Positions 1-13,674 of a stretch of 13,674 nucleotides of DNA are shown here, in pieces. The first letter of the stretch is position 1; every line of letters starts with the position of its first letter. The notes beneath the pieces are model-generated. The model made no database searches. It was not told where the DNA came from and worked only from the letters and a program-made list of their open reading frames with translations. The position numbers were made by a program, and so were the translations under genes. The stretch lies in the NCBI GenBank assembly GCA_027080315.1, contig JALWSI010000194.1, forward strand, positions 1-13,674, given 5' to 3'. The stretch is from a bacterium. Lineage in GTDB: Bacteria; Thermosulfidibacterota; Thermosulfidibacteria; Thermosulfidibacterales; JALWSI01.

Positions 1-31
1 ATTCCAGTTCCTTCCTGACATCCTCGTCCAT
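1..31 (-). CDS. Start of an unidentified gene, cut by the left edge
   Basis: An ATG at 31 opens a frame that reads MDEDVRKELE before the window ends. It begins 6 bases after the stop of the 86-residue gene, and the sequence AGGTGACC just before it can act as a ribosome binding site. It is therefore probably the fifth gene of the leftward CoA-transferase operon. Ten charged residues are too few to assign a family. The alternative is a chance ATG, but the operon spacing and the upstream AGGTG favour a real start. Confidence 0.5.
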   Translation of the reverse strand, partial: MDEDVRKELE

Positions 32-37
32 GGTCAC

Positions 38-298
38 CTATTTTATCTCTTCATAGGCGTAGCACTTCTTCACAATCCTGTGCTCCGGGACGCACCAGAA
101 GAAGGGCCAATGGATCTTCTTGCACCAACCGATTATGTCAGCCGGAGGAAACTGAGAGTTTTTGATAACCGGTTTGAAGTATTTGCAGCCCCAACAAATG
201 TGATCGCTATCCTTCTCGGGCTCGAGGATCATGAGCTTAAACTCGGCTGGCGTCATCTCCTCTTTGGGTTTATTCAAAAAGCTTCTGTCAATTCCCAT
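38..298 (-). CDS. Small cysteine-rich protein, possible Fe-S or zinc subunit
   Basis: 86 residues, no signal peptide or membrane segment, with five cysteines at 35, 38, 59, 69 and 79. The visible pattern is CWGCKYFKP, then GWCKK, then FWCVPEHR, then KKCYAYEE. Spaced cysteines of the form CxxCK..P...G.C...W...C...E resemble, from memory, the small HiPIP-like subunits of glycyl radical enzymes such as benzylsuccinate synthase (BssB/BssC) and 4-hydroxyphenylacetate decarboxylase, which bind a [4Fe-4S] cluster. This is a resemblance only, and a plain zinc-binding protein is equally possible. Its start is preceded by GGAGGAGG (304-312 on the opposite strand), among the strongest ribosome binding sites in the operon. 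It lies 17 bases after the 162-residue gene. No glycyl radical enzyme is visible in the window; if there is one it would be further left. Confidence 0.75.
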   Translation of the reverse strand: MGIDRSFLNKPKEEMTPAEFKLMILEPEKDSDHICWGCKYFKPVIKNSQFPPADIIGWCKKIHWPFFWCVPEHRIVKKCYAYEEIK

Positions 299-315: not shown

Positions 316-804
316 CTACCAGTCTCTAACCAAGCCCCTCTTCTTCCTCTCGAGGAACTCTTCCCATAGCTCTGGGGAGTTTTCCTCAATAGGCCACTTG
401 AATCCTGCGGAGCCCAGAGGACCAGTGGACTTGGGCTGGGGACGTTGCCCCCTCACAGGATAGCCCCTTACGCTGAACTTAACCGGATCGGGTTGTCCAA
501 GGTAGATGTGCCTGGGAAGACAGAGGTAGGGTCTTGTTCTGCCTTCTGTCCCAGGCAGGTAGTTCTTGTAGCCCTCAAGGGGCTTATCGGCGTAGAGAGG
601 AAGAATGTCGGGCTCGGTTCCAGGGGGCTGCTCCTCTGGACCCTTATACATCCAACCCTCGATCATGTATATGTAATAGACGGTTCCACACTCTGCACAG
701 GCAATCTTGCCTTCCCAGTTCCAGAAGTTGAAGGGGTCCAGATAGTTAACGGTGTTGCACACCTTTCCATCTATCTCTTTTTTGCACCATATTATATCAC
801 ACAT
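316..804 (-). CDS. Unrecognised 162-residue protein with N-terminal cysteine knuckles
   Basis: I do not recognise this family. The N-terminal 50 residues hold cysteines at 2, 7, 16, 36 and 39. The C36-A-E-C39-G knuckle and the C7/C16 pair could together form a zinc ribbon or rubredoxin-like metal site. A further cysteine sits at 95. The rest is rich in Pro, Gly, Tyr and Arg and looks like an extended soluble domain, with a charged helical tail (about 143-158). There is no signal peptide or membrane segment, so it should be cytoplasmic. The ATG at 804 follows GGGGG with about 8 bases between, and lies 11 bases after the stop of the second CoA-transferase, which places it in the same operon. 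By position it could be an accessory or electron-transfer partner of the transferases or of an enzyme encoded further left. That role is inference from context alone. Confidence 0.8.
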   Translation of the reverse strand: MCDIIWCKKEIDGKVCNTVNYLDPFNFWNWEGKIACAECGTVYYIYMIEGWMYKGPEEQPPGTEPDILPLYADKPLEGYKNYLPGTEGRTRPYLCLPRHIYLGQPDPVKFSVRGYPVRGQRPQPKSTGPLGSAGFKWPIEENSPELWEEFLERKKRGLVRDW

Positions 805-815
805 AGCATATCCCC

Positions 816-2228
816 CTATATTATGGTCTTCTCATACCACTCTTTGAGGGTGCTCATGGGATAACCGAGAAGCTCGTGGTAGATCTTAATGTTGTCGGCA
901 CCCACAGGCCTCAGATCCCAATACTTTCTTCTGGGTGTCTTGGACATGAGACCGCAGCTGTAAGTGCTTTGCACCAAGAAGTCTCCGTACACTGGATCAG
1001 CCTGCCAGCGAAGGGTTCCCCTCTCGCGGTAGTGATCAGACTCGTAAACCTCCTGGTCGTTGAGCACCGGCATCGCCAAGAGACCAGCCTCTTTTAGAAT
1101 TTTAACAACCTCAGAGCGGCTCTTGTCTGCTGCCCACTTCTCAAGCTCGTGGTAGATCTCAACCTGTGCCTCAGCCTCCACTCTGTCTTTGTGGTTCATG
1201 TATTTGTCGTAAAGGTCCATACGGCTGATAACCTTGCAAAGCTCTTTGAAGTCAGGATCGTTAAAGGCGCTCACCATCACGTAGCGTGCCTCTTCCCTCA
1301 GCTGGGGATTTCTGTCGTTGGGATAGTCAGACTTGCCGCAGATGATGATGCCATGGACGCAAAGCTGGGTGTCCCAGTTGCCCCAACGCTGACGGACGAT
1401 TCCGAAGCGTCCGTATAGAGGAGTGGTGTAGCCCAAGCATCTGGTGGCAGCCTGCACCTGGGAGAACTCAATCATGGTTCCCAGACCGGTCTTGCGCCTC
1501 CAGAGAAGAGCTGCGAGCATGGCCACAGTAATCTGGGTGCCTGAGTACCAGTCAATGTTCCAGTTAGAGCTCTTGGTGGCGTGACCACCGAAGTCCTCGT
1601 GGAAACCGGTGATGCTGGCGAGACCCGCGTGAGCCTGACCAAGAATGTCATAGGAGCCTCCCCAGACCTTTGGACCGTAACCGAATCCACCGCCCCAAAC
1701 ATAGATGAAGCGGGGGTTCAGTTCTTGGAGATACCTATAGCTCTGTTTCCACTTGTCAAAGGTTCCAGGCCTGTAGCACTCTGTGAGACCGTCAGACATT
1801 CTCACCAGGGAGTAGAATGCCTCTTTGATCTCCTCCCGGTGGTAGTCCATGGAGATGTAGTACTCGTTCACGTTTGCGTTGAAGCAGGCCACGCCAGTTC
1901 CTGTCATGGGCCTTTCGTCGTGAAGAGGATACACATAGCACTCGTTGAAGGGGGAGGTATGGCGCATGGGGTCTCCCATACGGGGCATTTCCACCTTGAT
2001 CACCTCGGCACCCAACTCCGCTAAGTTGGTGACGGAATGGGGGGTGAAGATGTACATGGTGGTGCTGAGCCACCTGATTCCTTTGAGGGCCGTGGGCTTG
2101 ACGAACTCGTTGCCTACGTCAAACACCTTACGGCAGTAGTCCTCAAAGGGAATCTTCATCTCATCCATTTCCTCCTGGCTCTGGGGCCCCGGCTGATCCT
2201 CAATGGGTATTCTCTCAAATTTCTCCAT
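816..2228 (-). CDS. Class III (CaiB/BaiF type) CoA-transferase, second of a pair
   Basis: Predicted to move CoA between an acyl-CoA donor and a free carboxylic acid through an aspartyl-CoA thioester. With the ATG at 2228 the protein has 470 residues. Family marks in order: KPTALKGIR (about 44-52), [11 protein letters not shown] (70-80), [10 protein letters not shown] (85-94), RPGTFDKW (about 153-160), [15 protein letters not shown] (about 163-177), [12 protein letters not shown], and NIDWYSGTQ, whose Asp (about 226) aligns with the catalytic Asp169 of oxalate-type formyl-CoA transferase. Usual members have about 400 residues; the extra length is mostly a 40-odd-residue N-terminal extension. 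The preceding transferase ends in TGA, which shares a base with this ATG (TGATG), implying translational coupling. GTG at 2231 is an alternative start, but GGGGG at 2236-2240 is better spaced for the ATG. The pairing recalls BbsE/BbsF (benzylsuccinate CoA-transferase). The true substrate is unknown. Confidence 0.9.
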
Positions 2229-3781
2229 CACACTACCCCCTTGTCCTCAAGTTCTCTCATCTTCCACTGGTCAATTCCCAGATACTTCATGTAGATCTCG
2301 TAGTTGTCCTTCCCAACTGGCCTGCCTAACCACTTCACCCTTGCAGGGGTATGTAGCTGGAAGCCATCGGGAGGATAGGCATAGAGCAGGGTACCGTAGT
2401 GCTCGTCCTCAATGGTGTCAACCCAAGGACGATACTTGAAGTGGGGGAACTCCGCCACTTCGTCAATGAAGAGCAATGGACCAGCGGCGATCTCGTATTC
2501 CATGAGTTTGTCCTCAGCCTCTTTACGGCAGATACCCCTGAGCCATCTTGCGGTGAGGGTATAGGTCTTGGTGAGGGCCTGCAGAGCGTTTCTGGCTCCC
2601 ACCTCTTTGAGCAGGGGATCTTCTCCGATGAGGCGTCCAAACTCGGGATAGTCTCTCTCTATACACATGCCGATACGGTACCAGAGACGGTCGGTCTGGC
2701 CACCGATCATCATGTATCCGTCACGGCAGGGGTTCCAAGCGTACTGGTTCAGGTTGGGATCCCAAGAGCCTGTTCTTCCTTTGATGCTGGCGTTGAATCC
2801 GTACCAGGTGAGGTCAAAGTCAAGGATGTCCAACAGGGCCTCTGCTGAGGTGACCTCTATAAACTGTCCCTCTCCACTAAACTCGTCTCTCCAATACCAG
2901 GCGGCCAAGATGCTCACAGCCACCTGCTCGCCGGCGGTGTAGTCGGCAAACCAGGGTCCCGACCTTGTGGGGTTACCGCCTCTCTCCCTGTCCAGCAGGT
3001 CAGGGGGGAATCCTGTGTTGTGGACCCAAGAGCAGGCAACCATGCCAAAGGGATCCAGCATAGGCTGACCAAACTTTGAAACCTCGTCTTTCATGGAGCC
3101 CCACTGGCCCACCTCGCCTGTCCAGCAGTAGACCAGCTTGGGATTGATCTTCTCAAGATACCTGTAGCTCAAACCCCTCTCATCCATGTAGCCAGGGGGA
3201 TAGTACTCAATAATTGCGTCCACCGTGGCAGCCAGGCCTTTGAACATCTCCTGGCCTTCCTCGGTGTCAAGGTCCAGGGTTATACAGTACTTGTTGCGGC
3301 ACTCATGGATGAATTCCAAACCACAGGGTTCACCTGTGTACGCGTCCTTTAACATATACTCTTCGCGACCAAAGGGGGTGAGTTGCCTTAGGGGATCACC
3401 TCCAGGAGGCTCAACTTTGATAACCTCTGCTCCCAGCTCTGATAGGAGGGAAGCAGCAAAAGGACCGCTTAGCTTCCAGGTTCCAACCTCCAGAACCCTG
3501 TAACCCTGAAGGGCTTCGGGTTTAAGGAAGTTGTACTCCATACGGAGGTTGTCCTCGCACCATTTACCGAACTCCTGAGCCTTTCTGGCGGCGTACTGTT
3601 TCTCCATCACCTCGTCGGGAGAAGGAGGAGGGGTAACTGGCCAGGGCCTCACCTCAGGGCTGTTGATATCGAGGGTATCAGCTCTGCTATTGATCTCAAT
3701 CTCAATAACTTCCTGCTGCTTGCGAGGCGCATGCCGAGCTTTTGCCCGCTCTGGGAGTTTGATCTTCAACTCTTCTGCCAT
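2228..3781 (-). CDS. Class III (CaiB/BaiF type) CoA-transferase, first of a pair
   Basis: 517 residues, first gene of the leftward operon. Core marks: [16 protein letters not shown] (85-100), [19 protein letters not shown] (114-132), [25 protein letters not shown] (about 194-218), and FADYTAGEQ (278-286), with D280 matching the catalytic Asp of the family. The fold is expected to be the interlocked-ring dimer of family III, perhaps formed with the neighbouring transferase. The first 84 or so residues are an extra segment with a basic start and a Pro-rich stretch ([10 protein letters not shown], 47-56), unlike ordinary members of about 400 residues. The N terminus shows no export signal. GGGAGG (3790-3795) stands 8 bases before the ATG, a good ribosome binding site. 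By eye, codons end in C or G more often than in the flagellar block, which fits strong expression. A catabolic role in activating an organic acid is likely; the acid cannot be named. Confidence 0.92.
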
Positions 3782-5400: not shown

Positions 5401-6195
5401 TTGAACTTTACCCCTCCTGTTTTTGACCTCACCACCGTCTATTGGTTTTTCGTTCTCTTTTTGCGGGCAGCATCTTTTATATTCACTGCTCCCATAATAG
5501 GGAGTCGCAATGTGCCTGTGACTGTTAAGGCTGGCCTTTCATTGGCTATAGCCATAGTGGTGTATCCTGTTATTCCTCATAGCTACTTTGGACAGGTACC
5601 AGAAAACCTTCCTACTTTAGCCATGATTGTGATTAGAGAGGTTATAATAGGTATGGCCATAGGGTACGGAGCCCGTTTGGTGTTTGACGGGGTGCAGTTT
5701 GGTGCCCAGTATGTGGCCTTCATGATGGGATTGGGTATAGCCAATGTTCTTGATCCGCAGTCAGAGGCCCAGATGCCCATTATTGCTCAAATGGAGGGGG
5801 TTATTGCCTTTATTCTGTTCATAGCCATTGGAGGACATTTGTGGTTTATATCTGCATTTCACGATAGCTACTACATAATTCCCACAGGTGGGTTTAAACT
5901 GGTCTCTGGCGCCTGGGTTCTCTATTTAATGAAGATGGTGGGCAGGCTCTTTGTGATCGCCATGAAGGTGAATGCTCCAATATGGGCTGCCCTTCTATTT
6001 ACCCAGGTATGTATGGGCATAGTGGCCCGAATGATCCCACAGATAAACATATTCATCGTTGGTTTTCCTCTTCAGATAGCAATAGGTTTCTTTGTGCTGG
6101 CCTTCTCTTTGAATGTTCTGGCCACGGTTTTAGAGAGGTACTTTTATCAGCTTCACAAGGACATCTTCTTGATTATGCGATTGATGGCGGGGTGA
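5401..6195 (+). CDS. fliR: Flagellar export gate protein FliR
   Basis: 264 residues, normal for FliR, a polytopic inner-membrane protein that joins FliP and FliQ in the export gate. Hydrophobic segments lie at about 12-30, 45-58, 72-92, 128-150, 172-190, 193-212 and 215-242. The stretch QINIFIVGFPLQIAIGF (214-230) is a hallmark of the family. The start is TTG at 5401, not ATG: AGGAG (5389-5393) is 7 bases upstream, and the next residues (NFTPPVFDL) fit the family's N terminus. The fliQ stop overlaps this binding site, so the two genes are probably coupled. flhB follows after 5 bases. Confidence 0.96.
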   Translation: MNFTPPVFDLTTVYWFFVLFLRAASFIFTAPIIGSRNVPVTVKAGLSLAIAIVVYPVIPHSYFGQVPENLPTLAMIVIREVIIGMAIGYGARLVFDGVQFGAQYVAFMMGLGIANVLDPQSEAQMPIIAQMEGVIAFILFIAIGGHLWFISAFHDSYYIIPTGGFKLVSGAWVLYLMKMVGRLFVIAMKVNAPIWAALLFTQVCMGIVARMIPQINIFIVGFPLQIAIGFFVLAFSLNVLATVLERYFYQLHKDIFLIMRLMAG

Positions 6196-6200
6196 TGTAG

Positions 6201-7283
6201 ATGCCAGAGAGAGACGACCAGGAACGCACAGAAGACCCAACTCCAAAGCGAAGGCAGGAGGCAAGGGAGAAGGGCCAGATCCCTAAAAGCCGAGAGGTGG
6301 CTTCTGTAGCCCTGCTATTTGCAAGCTGCATCTACTTTCTCTTTCTTTACAAGTACACCTACCAACATCTGGGAGAGACCATTGTTCACTTCTTCAGGCT
6401 TATTCCTAATGTGAAAGAGATGAACATATACGCCTTTACTCGGGCTCTGACCACAGGGATGAAAGAGCTGGGAATGGTTCTGACCCCCTTTTTACTTTTG
6501 ATGGTTGTGGTCTCTTTGGTTGCAAATATTGGACAGGTGGGTTTTATATTAACAGGAGAACCCCTGATCCCGAAGCTGGACAAGTTGAATCCTATTTCTG
6601 GAATAAAGAACCTATTTTCAAAGAACTCCCTGGTAGAGCTGGTTAAGGGGCTTTTGAAGATAGCAATAATAGGCTTTGTGGCCTACAAGGTGCTTAAAGG
6701 CGACTTTGCAAAGATTTTTGCCTTAGGTCTGCTCCCCGTTTCAGGTCTTGCAGGATTCATCCTGTGGGCTGCTTTCAAAGTCACCATGAAGATAGTGATG
6801 GTCTTCGTTATTCTCGCCATTCTGGATTACGGCTATCAGAAGTGGGAGAACGAGCAGCAGTTGAAGATGAGTGTTCAAGAGGTGAAAGAGGAGCTGAAGC
6901 AGATGGAGGGAGATCCTCAAATCAAGGCGAAAATAAAGCAGCTTCAGCGTGAGATGGCCCAGCGTAGAATGATGGAAGAGGTACCGAAGGCCGATGTGGT
7001 CATCACGAACCCCACTGAGCTTGCCATAGCCCTGAGATACGATGATGCAAAGATGGAGGCACCTACTGTTGTAGCCAAAGGAGCGGGGTTTGTGGCCCAA
7101 CGAATAAAGGATATAGCAAACAAGCATGGGGTTCCCATTGTGGAGAACAAGCCTCTGGCCCAAACCCTCTACAAAGCGGTGGAGATAGGAGACGAGATCC
7201 CTGAGCACCTCTACAAAGCAGTGGCAGAGGTGCTGGCCTATGTCTATTCCCTCAAGAACAGGGAGAGAAGGAAAACAGCTTAA
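6201..7283 (+). CDS. flhB: Flagellar export switch protein FlhB
   Basis: 360 residues. FlhB sets the substrate-specificity switch of the export apparatus from rod/hook to filament proteins. It has a charged N terminus ([23 protein letters not shown], about 11-33) conserved in FlhB and its injectisome relatives, four hydrophobic segments (about 33-50, 92-112, 150-165 and 180-208), then the soluble cytoplasmic domain. Self-cleavage occurs between Asn and Pro of an NPTx motif, here N270-P271-T272-E273, so the last residue is Glu where Salmonella has His. NPTE occurs in other bacterial FlhBs and should still cleave. GGGGTGA just before the start can serve as ribosome binding site and includes the fliR stop. 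flhA begins directly after the stop with no gap. Confidence 0.97.
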
Positions 7284-9407
7284 ATGGCAGAAGAACGCAG
7301 CTTCATAGACCGATACCTGGGTTCTTCCTTTGACGTTGGCATAGCCCTGAGCGTCGTACTTGTTCTAACCGTCATGATCATCCCTCTCCCTGCTCCTATC
7401 TTGGATATACTGCTCGCAACCAACATATCTCTTTCCCTCCTGATTCTACTAACCTCGGTTTACGTTCAAAGGCCATTGGAGTTTTCATCATTTCCCACGG
7501 TGCTTCTCATTACCACCCTCTTCAGGCTCTCCCTTAACGTGGCCACCACCAGAAGGATTCTCCTTTACGGCAACAAAGGTACCGCTGCAGCTGGCCATAT
7601 AATTCAAGCCTTTGGTCAATTTGTGGTGGGAGGCAACTACGTAGTGGGGTTTGTGGTGTTCCTGATTCTGGTGATCATAAACTTTGTGGTTATCACCAAA
7701 GGTGCCCAAAGAATAGCCGAAGTGGCAGCCCGCTTCACTTTAGATGCCATGCCGGGAAAGCAGATGGCTGTAGATGCGGACCTGAACGCGGGGTTGATTG
7801 ATGAAGCTGTGGCCAGAAAGCGCAGAGAGGAGATTCGCCGAGAGGCCGACTTCTACGGAGCAATGGACGGAGCCAGCAAGTTCGTTAGGGGAGACGCAAT
7901 AGCCGGTGTTATTATTACTGTTATCAATATCCTCGGTGGATTGATCATAGGGGTGATGCAACTGCACATGTCTCCCGAAAAAGCGGCTAAGACCTTCACC
8001 ATCTTGACCATTGGAGACGGATTGGTGGGTCAGATTCCAGCCCTTCTTATCTCCACCTCTGCCGGTATCGTGGTTTCAATGGCGGCCTCTTCTGAAGAGA
8101 GCCTTGGCAGGGACATCACCCAGCAGATTGCAGGGAATGCGAAGGTGCTGGGTTTAGGATCGGCTATTCTCTTCTTTGCGGGCATAGTGCCAGGATTGCC
8201 TTTGATCCCTTTCTGGACCCTTTCTGCCATACTTGGAGTCATCACCTACATCACCTTGAAACGCACAAAAGAGGCGGAGGTGGTGTCTGAAGAAGAGAAG
8301 GCAAAAGAGGAGGCAGAGACTCCAGAAGAAGAGGTGGAGAAACTTGCCACAATGATCCAAGTGGATCCCGTTGAGCTGGATCTGGGCTACGGACTTATCC
8401 CTTTGGTTGAGGAGGGTAAGGGTGGAAATCTTCTGGCCAAAGTGAAGGCCATGCGAAGGCAGATCGCTCTGGATCTGGGAATAATAGTGCCCCCTGTGCG
8501 CATAAGAGACAACCTGCAGCTTCCACCAAATGTTTACACCATCCTCCTGCAAGGGGTTGAGGTGGCAAGGGGAGAGGTGATGATGGATAAGCTTTTGGCC
8601 ATGAGCCCAGGTGGAGAGGTGAAAGAGATTGAAGGTATTGCAACAAAAGAGCCCGCCTTTGGTCTGCCAGCGGTCTGGATAGCCCCCGAGCTTCAAGACA
8701 AAGCTCAGTTGGAGGGATACACAGTGGTGGATCCTGCCACAGTGGTGGTGACCCATCTATCTGAGGTGCTCAAGACCCACGCCCATGAGCTGCTGGGTCG
8801 CCAGGAGGTGCAGAATCTGCTTGACAGCGTGGCCAAGACCTCTCCCAAGCTGGTGGAGGATCTTATCCCCAATATTCTGCCTTTGGGCACAGTTAGGTCC
8901 GTGCTGCAGAACCTTGTGAAAGAGGGGGTCTCAATACGAAACCTGCAGAGAATCTTGGAGACCTTAGCGGATCTTGGTTCTAAGACAGACGATGTGGAGG
9001 TGCTTACAGAGTACGTTAGACAGGTTTTGGCACGCCAGATTGTGCATCAGTACATTGGGCCTGATGGCACCCTGCCAATAGTGGTGTTGGATCCGGCTTT
9101 TGAGAGGGTTTTGGTGAATCACGTTAAGAAGACCGAGCAGGGAAGCGTGCTGGCCTTGCCGCCTCAGACGGAGAAACGGTTAGCAGAGAATATTGAACAG
9201 GCTCTTAAAGCACCTCTTGAGAAGGGTATTCAGCCTGTTGTGGTTGTTGCAGCAGAGTTGCGCCCTGCCTTTAGAAGGTTTATGGATAGATACATACAGA
9301 AGGTTGCTGTATTGTCGCCTTTAGAAATACAGTCTGATATCAGGGTGCAGGTCTTGGGTGTTGTGAAGTGGGAAGAAGAGGATAAGAAGGAAGAGGAGGG
9401 TAGATGA
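7284..9407 (+). CDS. flhA: Flagellar export protein FlhA
   Basis: 707 residues, a full-length FlhA (FHIPEP family), the nonameric ring of the export gate that couples to the proton motive force and docks chaperone-substrate complexes. The N-terminal half (about 18-325) carries the membrane segments and the highly conserved stretches [20 protein letters not shown] (68-87) and [19 protein letters not shown] (154-172), then the cytoplasmic loop with [20 protein letters not shown] (187-206). An acidic linker (about 329-352, [19 protein letters not shown]) joins it to the cytoplasmic domain. The start directly follows the flhB stop. The only binding-site candidate is AAGGA around 7268-7272, so translation is probably coupled. 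The stop overlaps the flhF start (ATGA). Confidence 0.98.
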
Positions 9408-10732
9408 AGATAAAGTGCTACACCGCCTCAACAGCCAAAGAGGCCCTTGAGATGGTTAGAAGGGAACTGGGGGAGAATGCCCTGATTCTCTCTACAAAAG
9501 AGAGATTTGGCAGGGTTGAGGTGGTGGCAGCTACCGAGTTTGACTTTGACACCCTCAAAGAGGAAGAGCCGCGCAAGGCAATAGACATAGTAGAGCAGAT
9601 TAAGGAGTCTTCTTCACCTCCAGGTTCGTATCCACCTTCTTCTCCGTCTCTTTCAAGCATTTACCAGCATCTTCATGGGCCTCAAGGTGGAGAGCCTCCT
9701 CCCCCACAGGGAGAGAAACCTACTTCACAGGTACCTCAGGTTGCTCCTCCCGGAATGCCCGTGGCATCAGAGCAGTCTCCTGTTCCCTCACACGTCATGG
9801 CAGAGATTATGGAGATAAAAGAGGTGCTGTTGAGACTGCTTCAGGACCGAAAGGAACAGGAGACAATAAGAGGGCTGTCAAACGAGATAAAAGAGATAAA
9901 AGAGCTACTTAAGAAACAGACCCAGCAGACAGAGTCATCTACCGGGGACCTTCAGGTAGGAGAGAGTCTGAGGCCCATCTATGAGAGGTTGAAAAAGCAG
10001 GAGCTTAGCGGAGAGCTTCTTAAGAATGTTATGATTACCCTCTCGCTTCATCCCGATGCGGTGGATCCATACCTTATTGCAGAAGAGGTTTTGAGCAAAG
10101 AGATATTAACCGTTGATATATTTGGCCAAAAGCCCTCAAAGGTTCTGATGCTTCTCGGTCCCACTGGGGTGGGGAAGACAACCACAATAGCCAAACTCGC
10201 CGCCATGGGCACCATCTCTGGGCTCAAGATGGGTATTGTGAACATTGACACCTATCGTATTGGAGCCACGGAACAGTTAAAGACCTACGCCAGGATCATG
10301 GGCTTACCCTTTAAGGTGGCACACTCTCCAGAGAGTTTCGTGCAATGCTGCGACTCCTTGAGTTACCTGGATCTCATCCTGGTTGATACCGCAGGAAGAT
10401 CTCCTACAGACGACCTTAGAATAGAGGACATGAGAGGCTTTCTTGACTCTTCTGTGCCCATAACCTCTTTGGTTGTTTTGGGGATACCCACCAGAACAGA
10501 GGACATGCTGATGGCTGTTGAGAAGTTTAAGGACTTTAAGGTGGTTGGGTTCATTTTCACCAAGTTGGACGAGAGCAGCGTATATGGCCCAATGATAACC
10601 GTTTGCAAAAAGGCTGCAAAACCAGTGGCCTACATCACAACCGGTCAAAGGGTTCCCGAAGACATAGAACTCGCCTTACCTGGTAGAATAGCGAGGCTTA
10701 TTCTGGGAACAGAGAGTATTCTTACGAGGTGA
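9404..10732 (+). CDS. flhF: Flagellar SRP-like GTPase FlhF
   Basis: 442 residues. FlhF is the third SRP-type GTPase (with Ffh and FtsY); it marks the site of flagellar assembly, typically the pole. Parts in order: B domain (1-66, beginning [15 protein letters not shown]), a Pro/Ser/Gln-rich flexible linker (about 67-130), a charged helical region (131-175), the N domain (about 185-235), and the G domain with P-loop GPTGVGKTT (252-260), [16 protein letters not shown] (281-296), [10 protein letters not shown] (328-337) and TKLDE (386-390). It starts inside flhA (ATGA overlap) with AGGAGG (9394-9399) 4 bases upstream. flhG follows 6 bases after its stop, as expected for partners. All key GTPase motifs appear intact. 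Confidence 0.97.
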
Positions 10733-10738
10733 GCTGAG

Positions 10739-11653
10739 ATGGAGGAGAAGAGGGCCCTCATATCTCAGACCCCTCAGGATATCTTAGGTCCAGAGGATCA
10801 GGCCCACAGCCTGAGACAGTACTTCTCTCCTGGTCGTGAGACTGTGGTTGTGGCTATCACCAGTGGAAAAGGTGGGGTGGGCAAAACCAACTTCACAGCA
10901 AATACCGCTTATCTTCTGGCCCAAATGGGTAAAAAGGTCTGTGTGCTTGATGCCGATTTGGGATTAGCCAACATAGACGTGTTGTTGGGTCTTGTGCCCC
11001 GTAAGACCTTGGCCAATGTGCTCAGGGGCGAATGCACCATGACAGACATTGTTCTGGAAGGACCGGGAGGAATGGCCATTATTCCTGCAAGCTCGGGGCT
11101 TAGAGAGATGGCCAACATGGGGCGTGAACAACAGAAGATTCTGGCAGACCAGATGGCGTCATTAGATGGGGAATTTGATTTTCTCTTCATAGACACTGCA
11201 GCCGGGATTTCTCAGCAGGTTATGGCCTTTCTAGCTGCGTCTCCTCAGGTGATCCTGATTACCACTCCAGAGCCAACTGCGGTGACAGATGCCTACGCCA
11301 TGGTTAAGTTGCTAAACTCAGAGTACGGCAAGCGCACCATCTATTTGGTGGTGAATATGGTTAGGCGATACAGAGAAGGTGAGGAGACCGCGGGAAAGCT
11401 ATCTTTGGTAGTTAAGCGTTTTTTGGGGGAGCACATAAAGATTGAGCATCTTGGCTCTCTACCTTACCAGACAGACATTGCCATCTCTGTGAGAGAACAG
11501 AGGCTTTATGTAGAGAAGTATCCAGACCGGAAATTCGCTGGCCTCTTGAAAGAGATATGCTACAAACTTACGGATTTTACCCTATTCCCTGGTGTTAGAG
11601 GAGGGGTTTCTCTGTTTGCAAAGGCTTTAATGAGAGGTTTGGGCAACAAATGA
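10739..11653 (+). CDS. flhG: MinD-like flagellar number regulator FlhG (FleN/YlxH)
   Basis: 304 residues. FlhG is a ParA/MinD-type ATPase that limits flagellar number and stimulates the GTPase of FlhF. The short N terminus contains EDQAHSLRQYF (19-29), matching the DQAxxLR activator motif that acts on FlhF. Next comes the deviant Walker A GKGGVGKTN (43-51), the switch I aspartate in DADLGLANIDVLLGL (about 70-84), and FLFIDTAAGIS, the Walker B region. The C-terminal end (about 285-304) is amphipathic and could form the membrane-targeting helix known in MinD-type proteins. GAGGTGA (10726-10732), which contains the flhF stop, stands 6 bases before the ATG. Its own stop overlaps the next start (ATGA). 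Confidence 0.96.
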   Translation: MEEKRALISQTPQDILGPEDQAHSLRQYFSPGRETVVVAITSGKGGVGKTNFTANTAYLLAQMGKKVCVLDADLGLANIDVLLGLVPRKTLANVLRGECTMTDIVLEGPGGMAIIPASSGLREMANMGREQQKILADQMASLDGEFDFLFIDTAAGISQQVMAFLAASPQVILITTPEPTAVTDAYAMVKLLNSEYGKRTIYLVVNMVRRYREGEETAGKLSLVVKRFLGEHIKIEHLGSLPYQTDIAISVREQRLYVEKYPDRKFAGLLKEICYKLTDFTLFPGVRGGVSLFAKALMRGLGNK

Positions 11654-12009
11654 TACCTGGAATAGACAACTTCTTGTCTATTGTTGAGGCTATAGTGAAC
11701 AGGGTGCTTATTCACAGCGTGTATCGTAGAAGGATCACAGGGGTGGCCATGCTGCTATCCTGTGGAGTTGTGGTATTGTATGCAGTGGATCCCCATCATC
11801 CTTTTTCCAACGATCCCCTTCTATGGTTGGCATGGGTGGTTATTCATGGACTTTCCTGGTTTTTTGTCTTTCTTTTCATATGTCTCATAGCCACCTATTT
11901 TATTCTGAAAGAGGACATCCTATCTTTCATGGAAGACGAAGAAGAGGAAGATAGGTCTGAGTTTGCCACGAACGAGATGGAGAACGCTGAGGAGAGAGTG
12001 AGTGGATAA
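11650..12009 (+). CDS. Small two-helix membrane protein between flhG and fliA, function unknown
   Basis: 119 residues with no family I can name. Two hydrophobic helices (about 29-46 and 58-86) flank a short loop with DPHHPFSND. An N-terminal amphipathic stretch ends in basic residues (RRR at 26-28), which by the positive-inside rule places the N terminus in the cytoplasm. The C-terminal tail after residue 87 is strongly acidic (MEDEEEEDRSEF) and also cytoplasmic. It overlaps flhG by 4 bases and fliA by 8, so it is an integral member of the operon. In Campylobacter jejuni (Cj0062c) and Helicobacter pylori (HP1033) a small membrane protein gene sits at exactly this place between flhG and fliA. 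I infer these may be the same conserved factor; sequence homology was not tested. Confidence 0.85.
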   Translation: MIPGIDNFLSIVEAIVNRVLIHSVYRRRITGVAMLLSCGVVVLYAVDPHHPFSNDPLLWLAWVVIHGLSWFFVFLFICLIATYFILKEDILSFMEDEEEEDRSEFATNEMENAEERVSG

Positions 12010-12709
12010 GGAAGAACTGTTCTACAAGTACCTCCCCATTGTGGAGAGATGTGTTATGCGTATAAAGGAGAGGATTCCTGCCCACGTTGAGGCTGATGAC
12101 TTGGTTAACCAGGGGGTTATCGGACTTCTTGATGCCATAGATAGGTTTGATCCTCAGAAGGGGGTGCCTTTCCCTGTCTTTGCAGAGATAAGGGTGAGGG
12201 GGGCTATAATGGACTATCTGCGCTCCTTAGATTGGCTTCCACGGTCAAGCAGGGGAAGGCTTAAAGAGTACGAAGAGGCATTAAAGATGCTTGAGCAGAA
12301 ACTGGGCAGAGAGCCAACTCCTAAAGAGCTTGGAGATCTATTAGGTGTGGATGAAGAGGAGGTGCATAGGTTAGAGCTTGAAGTGGCTAATCAGTTCTTT
12401 GTTAGCTTAGCCACTCCGATTGTGGAGTCTGAGAACCCCCAAACCCTTCTTGATGTCCTTGCAGGAGACGAAGAGGAATCTCCAGAGGCGATATGTGAAA
12501 GGGTTGAGACCATAGAACTGTTGGCCAAGGCCATAGATAAATTGCCCGAAAGAGATCAACTGCTCCTGTCTCTTTACTACCGAGACAACCTCACAATGAA
12601 GGAGATTGGAAGGGTTCTTGACATATCGGAATCCAGGGTGTCTCAGCTACACTCAAGGGCTCTATTGAGATTGAAGGATGAGATAAATAACCTTTCTGGA
12701 CGTGAATAA
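12002..12709 (+). CDS. fliA: Flagellar sigma factor FliA (sigma-28)
   Basis: 235 residues, normal for FliA, which directs RNA polymerase to late flagellar and chemotaxis promoters. Region 2 is clear (ADDLVNQGVIGLLDAIDRFD, 31-50, and FAEIRVRGAIMDYLRSLDWLPR, 60-81). Region 3 follows (about 84-125, with GREPTPKELGDLLGV). Region 4 holds the helix-turn-helix that reads the -35 (LPERDQLLLSLYY, 181-193, and LTMKEIGRVLDISESRVSQLHSRAL, 197-221). The start is GTG at 12002, inside the end of the membrane-protein gene, with AGGAG (11990-11994) 7 bases upstream. The anti-sigma factor FlgM is not in the window. fliM follows after 16 bases. Confidence 0.96.
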   Translation: MDKEELFYKYLPIVERCVMRIKERIPAHVEADDLVNQGVIGLLDAIDRFDPQKGVPFPVFAEIRVRGAIMDYLRSLDWLPRSSRGRLKEYEEALKMLEQKLGREPTPKELGDLLGVDEEEVHRLELEVANQFFVSLATPIVESENPQTLLDVLAGDEEESPEAICERVETIELLAKAIDKLPERDQLLLSLYYRDNLTMKEIGRVLDISESRVSQLHSRALLRLKDEINNLSGRE

Positions 12710-12725
12710 ATAGCAGGAGAGATAT

Positions 12726-13674
12726 ATGGCAGAGATTTTGAGTCAGGACGAGGTTGATGCTCTACTTTCAATGATCCAGACTGAAGAGGAGGTGGAGCTG
12801 GAGACCGCAACTGAGCGCTTCACCTCGCGAAAAACCGTTGTGCCTTACAACTTCAAGCGCCCTGATCGTATCTCTAAGGACCAGATGCGGTTTCTGCAGT
12901 TTATTCATGATCGTTTTGCACGAAATTTCAGCTCTGTGCTATCGGCCTATCTACGTAGTATCGTTGAGGTTAACCTGGTCTCCATTGATCAGATATCTTA
13001 CTCTGAGTTCCTCATGTCTCTTCCGGATCCTACCTGCTTCTGCGTTGTGGGGATCCAGCCCATAGAGGGTAAGGCTGCATTTGAGATAAACCCCACTCTG
13101 GCTTTTCCTATGATAGACAGGTTGCTTGGTGGACCTGGAGAGCCTCTGAGCGAGATGAGGGCTCTTACTGACCTTGAGGTGGATATTCTTGATGGAGTTA
13201 TCCAGAGGGCCATGGAGGAGCTTCGCTTCGTCTGGTCAGAGGCCATGGAAGAGATAGAGTTTGTGGTTGAGGTGAAAGAGACCAGCCCTCACTTGATCCA
13301 GATAGTCTCCCCAAACGAGGTTGTGGTTCTTGTGGTCTTTGAGGTGAGAATCGGAGAGGTGCAGGGTATGATGAACCTCTGTATCCCTGCCATAGCTTTA
13401 GAGCCCATAAGCAGTAATCTTAGCCAGGAGTGGTTCACTGGCACCCGAGAGGTTTCTGAAGAGGATAGACAAAGGATCGTGAAGCACGTGCTAAACGCAA
13501 AGGTGGATCTTAACGCCATACTGGGGGAGACCAAGATCACCGTTGGAGAGGTTTTGGACATGGAGAGTGGGGATCTCATAAGGTTACCAACTCCTATGCA
13601 TGCCCAGTTGAAGATAAAGATAGGGGCAGAAGAGATATTCAAGGGAGTTGTGGGTATATTGAGGGGAATACGGG
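12726..13674 (+). CDS. fliM: Flagellar motor switch protein FliM, cut by the right edge
   Basis: The frame is open from ATG 12726 to the end of the window: 316 residues and one base, with no stop, against a usual total of about 330. FliM is the middle layer of the C-ring and receives CheY-P to reverse rotation. The N terminus carries the CheY-binding peptide (ILSQDEVDALL, 4-14), then a linker and the middle domain (about 40-230) with its conserved GGPG motif (135-138). The C-terminal part (about 240 to the edge) is the FliN-like domain (VDLNAILGETKITVGEVLDMESGDLIRL). AGGAG (12715-12719) lies 6 bases before the ATG. fliN or fliY is the expected next gene, as in Campylobacter, but lies outside the window. 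Confidence 0.96.
   Translation, partial: MAEILSQDEVDALLSMIQTEEEVELETATERFTSRKTVVPYNFKRPDRISKDQMRFLQFIHDRFARNFSSVLSAYLRSIVEVNLVSIDQISYSEFLMSLPDPTCFCVVGIQPIEGKAAFEINPTLAFPMIDRLLGGPGEPLSEMRALTDLEVDILDGVIQRAMEELRFVWSEAMEEIEFVVEVKETSPHLIQIVSPNEVVVLVVFEVRIGEVQGMMNLCIPAIALEPISSNLSQEWFTGTREVSEEDRQRIVKHVLNAKVDLNAILGETKITVGEVLDMESGDLIRLPTPMHAQLKIKIGAEEIFKGVVGILRGIR

Follow-up and report, generated by a model that had tools for sequence, protein, structure and literature searches.

A paired class III CoA-transferase at the head of a conserved operon in sulfate-reducing and hydrothermal bacteria

Family III CoA-transferases occur both as paired and as single genes. Benzylsuccinate CoA-transferase, BbsEF (PDB 9fn0), is a heteromeric enzyme made from two genes; its chains are 409-410 aa long without extensions, and its operon partners are bbs/bss genes. 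A phthalate-type system in anaerobes also has a two-subunit family III CoA-transferase. Frc/YfdW, YfdE and SUGCT, on the other hand, are single genes for proteins of about 400 aa, without Cys-rich partner genes. The same fold also serves racemases and lyases, as in AMACR and DddD. The gene pair described here, called A and B, has the fold and the catalytic Asp column in common with the single-gene enzymes and would be a two-gene heteromer like BbsEF, but both of its proteins are extended at the N-terminus and its operon partners are different ones, among them Cys-rich proteins. No phthalate genes were noticed adjoining the A-B operon.

The window, by which we mean the whole stretch of 13,674 nucleotides analysed, carries both genes on the minus strand. 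Subunit A (2228..3781) is a class III CoA-transferase-like ORF of 517 aa with an N-terminal extension of about 85-90 aa, and subunit B (816..2231) is a class III CoA-transferase of 471 aa with an extension of about 45 aa. The class III (CaiB/BaiF) domain PF02515 (Pfam, cut-off 23.3 bits) is found at full length in both, at residues 91-488 of A (1.3e-66, 225.7 bits) and residues 49-446 of B (1.4e-64, 218.9 bits). The junction between the genes reads GTGTGATGG, where the TGA of A overlaps the start of B, and this start can be read as GTG (4 nt overlap) or as ATG (TGATG). The original prediction, made from the sequence of the window, saw here two divergent homologous transferases joined at TGATG, which agrees with both ORFs and with their 30-32% identity. 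It also gave each protein a catalytic Asp. Alignment places D280 of A and D227 of B in the column of Frc D169, so that the residue in A was named correctly and the one in B, given as about D226, was one position off. The N-terminal extension that it assigned to each protein is borne out by the position of the domain, which begins at residue 91 of A and residue 49 of B, and by its conservation in orthologs belonging to other phyla. An exception is the stretch of the first ~25 residues of A, which varies and which some orthologs lack. Judged by their sequences, A and B are a real, conserved pair of class III CoA-transferase type, from a known enzyme family.

The pair stands at the head of an operon with the conserved gene order A-B-F2-F25-F16-F10-MBL, found at no fewer than 23 loci from several phyla and kept in nearly all loci unless a contig end intervenes. 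Where the closest genomes offer sufficient sequence, A-B is followed by F2 (~162 aa), F25 (~86 aa), F16 (~100 aa), F10 (~143 aa), a gene for an MBL-TPR protein, and F3. The window holds the first part of this series, all on the minus strand: F2 at 316..804 (162 aa), F25 at 38..298 (86 aa), and at 1..31 the start of F16 (MDEDVRKELE...), ten codons before the contig ends, which was matched to F16 of loci L041/L043. The remainder of F16, F10 and MBL come next in relatives but are not on the window's contig; a search for F10 in the rest of the window's assembly gave no hit. Scanning named genomes with the F2 alignment gave 21 loci, including Desulfacinum hydrothermale, D. infernum, Desulfosoma, Desulfobacca and Syntrophobacterales, as well as MAGs labelled Aquificota, Thermodesulfobacteriota, Chloroflexota and Bacillota. 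F2 is present in 38 of 395 sampled genomes from the phylum of D. hydrothermale (30 canonical, 8 with only a divergent shorter form) and is rare outside it, with 9 of 386 sampled genomes, seven of which belong to the window's own order, the window's genome counted. The hosts are sulfate-reducing and hydrothermal bacteria. All six Thermodesulfobacteriota hosts tested have dsrA above cut-off and none does in the window's order, so that possession of the operon does not depend on sulfate reduction. The HGD-D family is patchy among the hosts. Viral contigs held no relative of A, and plasmids held only family III members, all below 60% identity. In the literature, no description of the A-B-F2-F25-F16-F10-MBL operon was found; the CoA-transferase family is known, unlike the operon and its four small protein families.

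None of these small proteins (F2, F25, F16, F10) has a Pfam or NCBIfam family above cut-off. F2 is zinc-ribbon-like and has four invariant Cys (C7, C16, C36, C39) in an alignment of 24; its fold model (pLDDT 70.6) has no PDB match. F25 has exactly four invariant Cys in 19 sequences, including a divergent one, in the pattern C-x2-C, C, C (C35, C38, C59, C79, numbered by the first row). Metal binding by both proteins is putative, in the case of F25 of metal or Fe-S. Nothing significant was found for F25 in PDB or Pfam, so that a likeness to the small Fe-S subunits of glycyl-radical enzymes would be tentative. The fold model of F10 (pLDDT 80) is similar to RIFT-type barrels, among them PHS018 (Foldseek E 0.0096, Z 7.6). 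This similarity falls short of showing relationship and suggests a RIFT-type beta-barrel only weakly. The MBL proteins match Lactamase_B plus TPR, and are the least conserved members of the operon.

A divergent version of the system, at loci L069 and L125-L135, consists of A', B', F2' and mostly F25', and F10 and F16 were not seen in it. A' and B' of L069 are 44-47% identical to the window proteins, and those of the other divergent loci are 54-59% identical to the L069 proteins. The genes after this block vary. Directly behind A'-B'-F2'-F25', loci L125-L129 have an LsrF-like thiolase (measured for L129, at 351 bits against an NCBIfam cut-off of 297) and then a zinc-type dehydrogenase, while L130-L135 and L069 have F3 and an AMP-forming acyl-CoA ligase. 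The likeness to LsrF (3-hydroxy-5-phosphonooxypentane-2,4-dione thiolase) is confined to genes beside the divergent version; it is not part of the window's operon, and the context of the E. coli lsr operon is absent. A class II aldolase-like gene lies nearby in L125 and L126. As the tails vary and A'-B'-F2'-F25' is kept, the stable core of the system is A-B-F2-F25. Since F2 and F25 stay with A-B even in divergent versions, they are likely bound subunits or dedicated partners of it.

A and B are neighbours in every intact locus, with a spacing of -4 to +2 nt (longer overlaps in a few loci result only from taking the first possible start codon). Across the 23 loci that have the full set of A, B, F2, F10 and MBL, the pairwise distances of A and B correlate at r = 0.932, the highest value of all operon gene pairs, to which shared species history contributes. 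Median identities are 0.73-0.77 for A, B and F2, as against 0.44 for MBL. The original prediction of a heteromeric pair is supported by this constant adjacency, close spacing and co-divergence, and the two proteins almost certainly work together. The reading we favour, and hold to be probable, is that A and B form one heteromer in which B is catalytic and A is an obligate partner, and that their genes open a conserved operon with a catabolic role. In such an enzyme Asp227 of B would attack the acyl-CoA donor to give an acyl-aspartyl anhydride, and CoA would then be handed to the acceptor acid. A would be the obligate partner, usually though not always with an Asp of its own, F2 and F25 would be bound or dedicated Cys-rich proteins, and the MBL-TPR protein may hydrolyse the product.

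How the work is divided between the two subunits depends on how their residues are conserved. The catalytic Asp of B is present in 42 of 42 readable sequences (32/32 canonical, 10/10 readable divergent). In A the same column has Asp in 23 and Ser in five of 28 canonical orthologs, and Asp in eight and Glu in one of nine divergent sequences. B also shares W105, Y139, Q200 and N244 (Frc numbering) with Asp-type subunits, at 23/23 and 15/15, and A does not; at the Tyr139 position, invariant in B and in Asp-type paralogs, 18 of 19 A sequences have Leu. The earlier proposal that both subunits could be active is weakened by the replacements in A, whose Asp is not essential, and B is likely the catalytic subunit. 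Other pairs in the same organisms provide a comparison. The window's genome (G000) has three more, C18-1/2, C18-3/4 and C62-1/2, each with Asp in the first subunit and Trp in the second, and among sibling-pair partners in the host order the column is W/H in 15 of 15, with His in one relative. A-B departs from this pattern of an Asp subunit with a Trp/His partner, because most species keep Asp in A; a subunit with a structural role alone would not be expected to do so. It may be that both subunits are catalytic. Each Asp would then belong to an active site of its own, and the heterodimer would either load two acids of different kinds or carry out its two half-reactions on different partners. 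Asp in 31 of 37 A sequences, where all 15 sibling partners lack it, speaks in favour of this, but with Ser in five canonical A proteins, Glu in a divergent one, and Leu in the Tyr139 position, we think it unlikely, if still worth keeping in mind. As for the sibling pairs themselves, contig C18 has four consecutive family III CoA-transferase genes (L046, 885-6284), with Asp alternating with Asp-less (Trp) proteins, and similar clusters are found in five related genomes (L049, L050, L052, L053, L054). On contig C62 (L047, 1837-4435), a gene that reads as thiolase-like comes just before an Asp/Asp-less pair.

Other alternatives concern the reaction and the substrate. The original prediction assumed an uncharacterised acid, and there is indeed no close characterised match: against solved family III enzymes, A and B score no higher than ~92 bits, and they stay far below every NCBIfam equivalog cut-off, those of Frc/YfdW, YfdE and SUGCT included. 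A BbsEF-like arylsuccinate (or SptAB-like aryl acid) CoA-transferase would fit the pairing of family III subunits and the PDB search in so far as A prefers chain 9fn0_A (67 bits, against 45 for 9fn0_B) and B prefers 9fn0_B (72 bits, against 33 for 9fn0_A). However, other enzymes score equal or higher, namely 4ed9 and 10uh for A (about 92 bits) and YfdW for B (78 bits), so that in these searches neither protein appears specifically closest to BbsEF. No bbs-like neighbours were noticed, no match to the PFL-like glycyl-radical enzyme family PF02901 was found in five genomes of the host order (G000, G001, G003, G006, G007) or in G350, G080 and G388, and several hosts have few or no acyl-CoA dehydrogenases. 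This makes such an enzyme very improbable. A benzylsuccinate-type role was rejected, and benzylsuccinate is an unlikely substrate, because the five genomes of the host order gave no sign of a fumarate-adding glycyl-radical enzyme that would make it. In two Desulfacinum genomes there is one PF02901 match each, assigned at the level of PF02901 only. It could also be that the fold serves another reaction here, such as the racemase or lyase reactions of AMACR and DddD, and that together with the Cys-rich proteins it forms a metalloenzyme of several subunits whose chemistry is distinct. Two Cys-rich proteins outside known families do accompany A-B even in its divergent form, and a RIFT-type barrel is weakly predicted for F10. 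Yet B retains the signature residues of ordinary-length Asp-type paralogs, metal binding by F25 and F2 is putative, and F10 and F16 are missing from the divergent version as far as seen, and we regard this as quite improbable. A bolder reading takes A-B-F2-F25 as a four-subunit, metal-containing enzyme of CoA-transferase type, of a kind not described before, with F16, F10 and MBL extending it in the canonical version. Its Cys-rich subunits would participate in the reaction, and its substrate would be one that supports growth of anaerobes but has gone unrecognised. This is a speculative idea that we rate as rather unlikely.

Returning to the pair as one heteromer with B catalytic, the origin that the original prediction proposed for its subunits is not supported. 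The F-x-KP-x-AL-x-G motif is present in both A and B, as noted there, and duplication of an already extended ancestor had been suggested from it. Sequences such as FLKPEALKG and FSKPEALSD occur in the same position in unextended paralogs of ~445 aa, so the motif is not specific to extended members and the argument fails. The tree of family III proteins (BbsE/BbsF sequences left out) does not decide the matter either: it places A beside the Asp-less partners and B beside the Asp-type subunits, with weak support (88/51). A also scores nearer the Asp-less type. Placement of A in the Asp-less lineage is weak, since A and B as one clade are not rejected (p-AU 0.37).

Some hints on the acid and its regulation come from the host genomes and the surroundings of the operon. 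The window's order is rich in acyl-CoA dehydrogenases (8 in G000), but G080, G388 and G600 have one each and none was detected in G350 (85% complete), and each of the latter four genomes has the operon or its divergent form. As G350 carries the operon, beta-oxidation of the fatty-acid type is probably not the route for the acid in every host. These counts argue against an obligatory beta-oxidation of the product, though weakly as regards G350, because this genome is incomplete. A PAS-sigma54 activator gene is found upstream in several loci and an IclR gene in one, which fits an inducible catabolic operon. Sites resembling sigma-54 promoters (9-10 of 10 positions) lie upstream of A in 3 of 28 loci (L137, L141, L142), and a scan upstream of A in the window gave no good one.

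The wider neighbourhoods were read from the stretches around the loci. Upstream of A, loci L039-L042, L045 and L080 have a second MBL-TPR gene, which in several adjoins a tRNA (m1A) methyltransferase-like gene; in this place the window has a LOG-like gene (TIGR00730) and flagellar genes. The latter, named by reading their translations, are export and regulation genes on the plus strand at 5401-13673 (fliR, flhB, flhA, flhF, flhG, a fliA-like sigma factor and fliM), and among them at 11650-12009 is a 119 aa ORF without Pfam or NCBIfam match. After F3, loci L041, L072, L071 and L090 from relatives of the window have adjoining amidoligase-like and class II glutamine amidotransferase genes on the opposite strand.

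The natural replacement of Asp by Ser in A in one lineage offers a clear way to test whether catalysis is possible in the second subunit of a heteromeric family III enzyme. A strictly ordered operon with four small protein families lacking characterisation is common to Desulfacinum, which is cultured, and to uncultured hydrothermal lineages. As the cultured hosts can be reached by proteomics and expression, it could become possible to assign an entire step in the catabolism of anaerobes.
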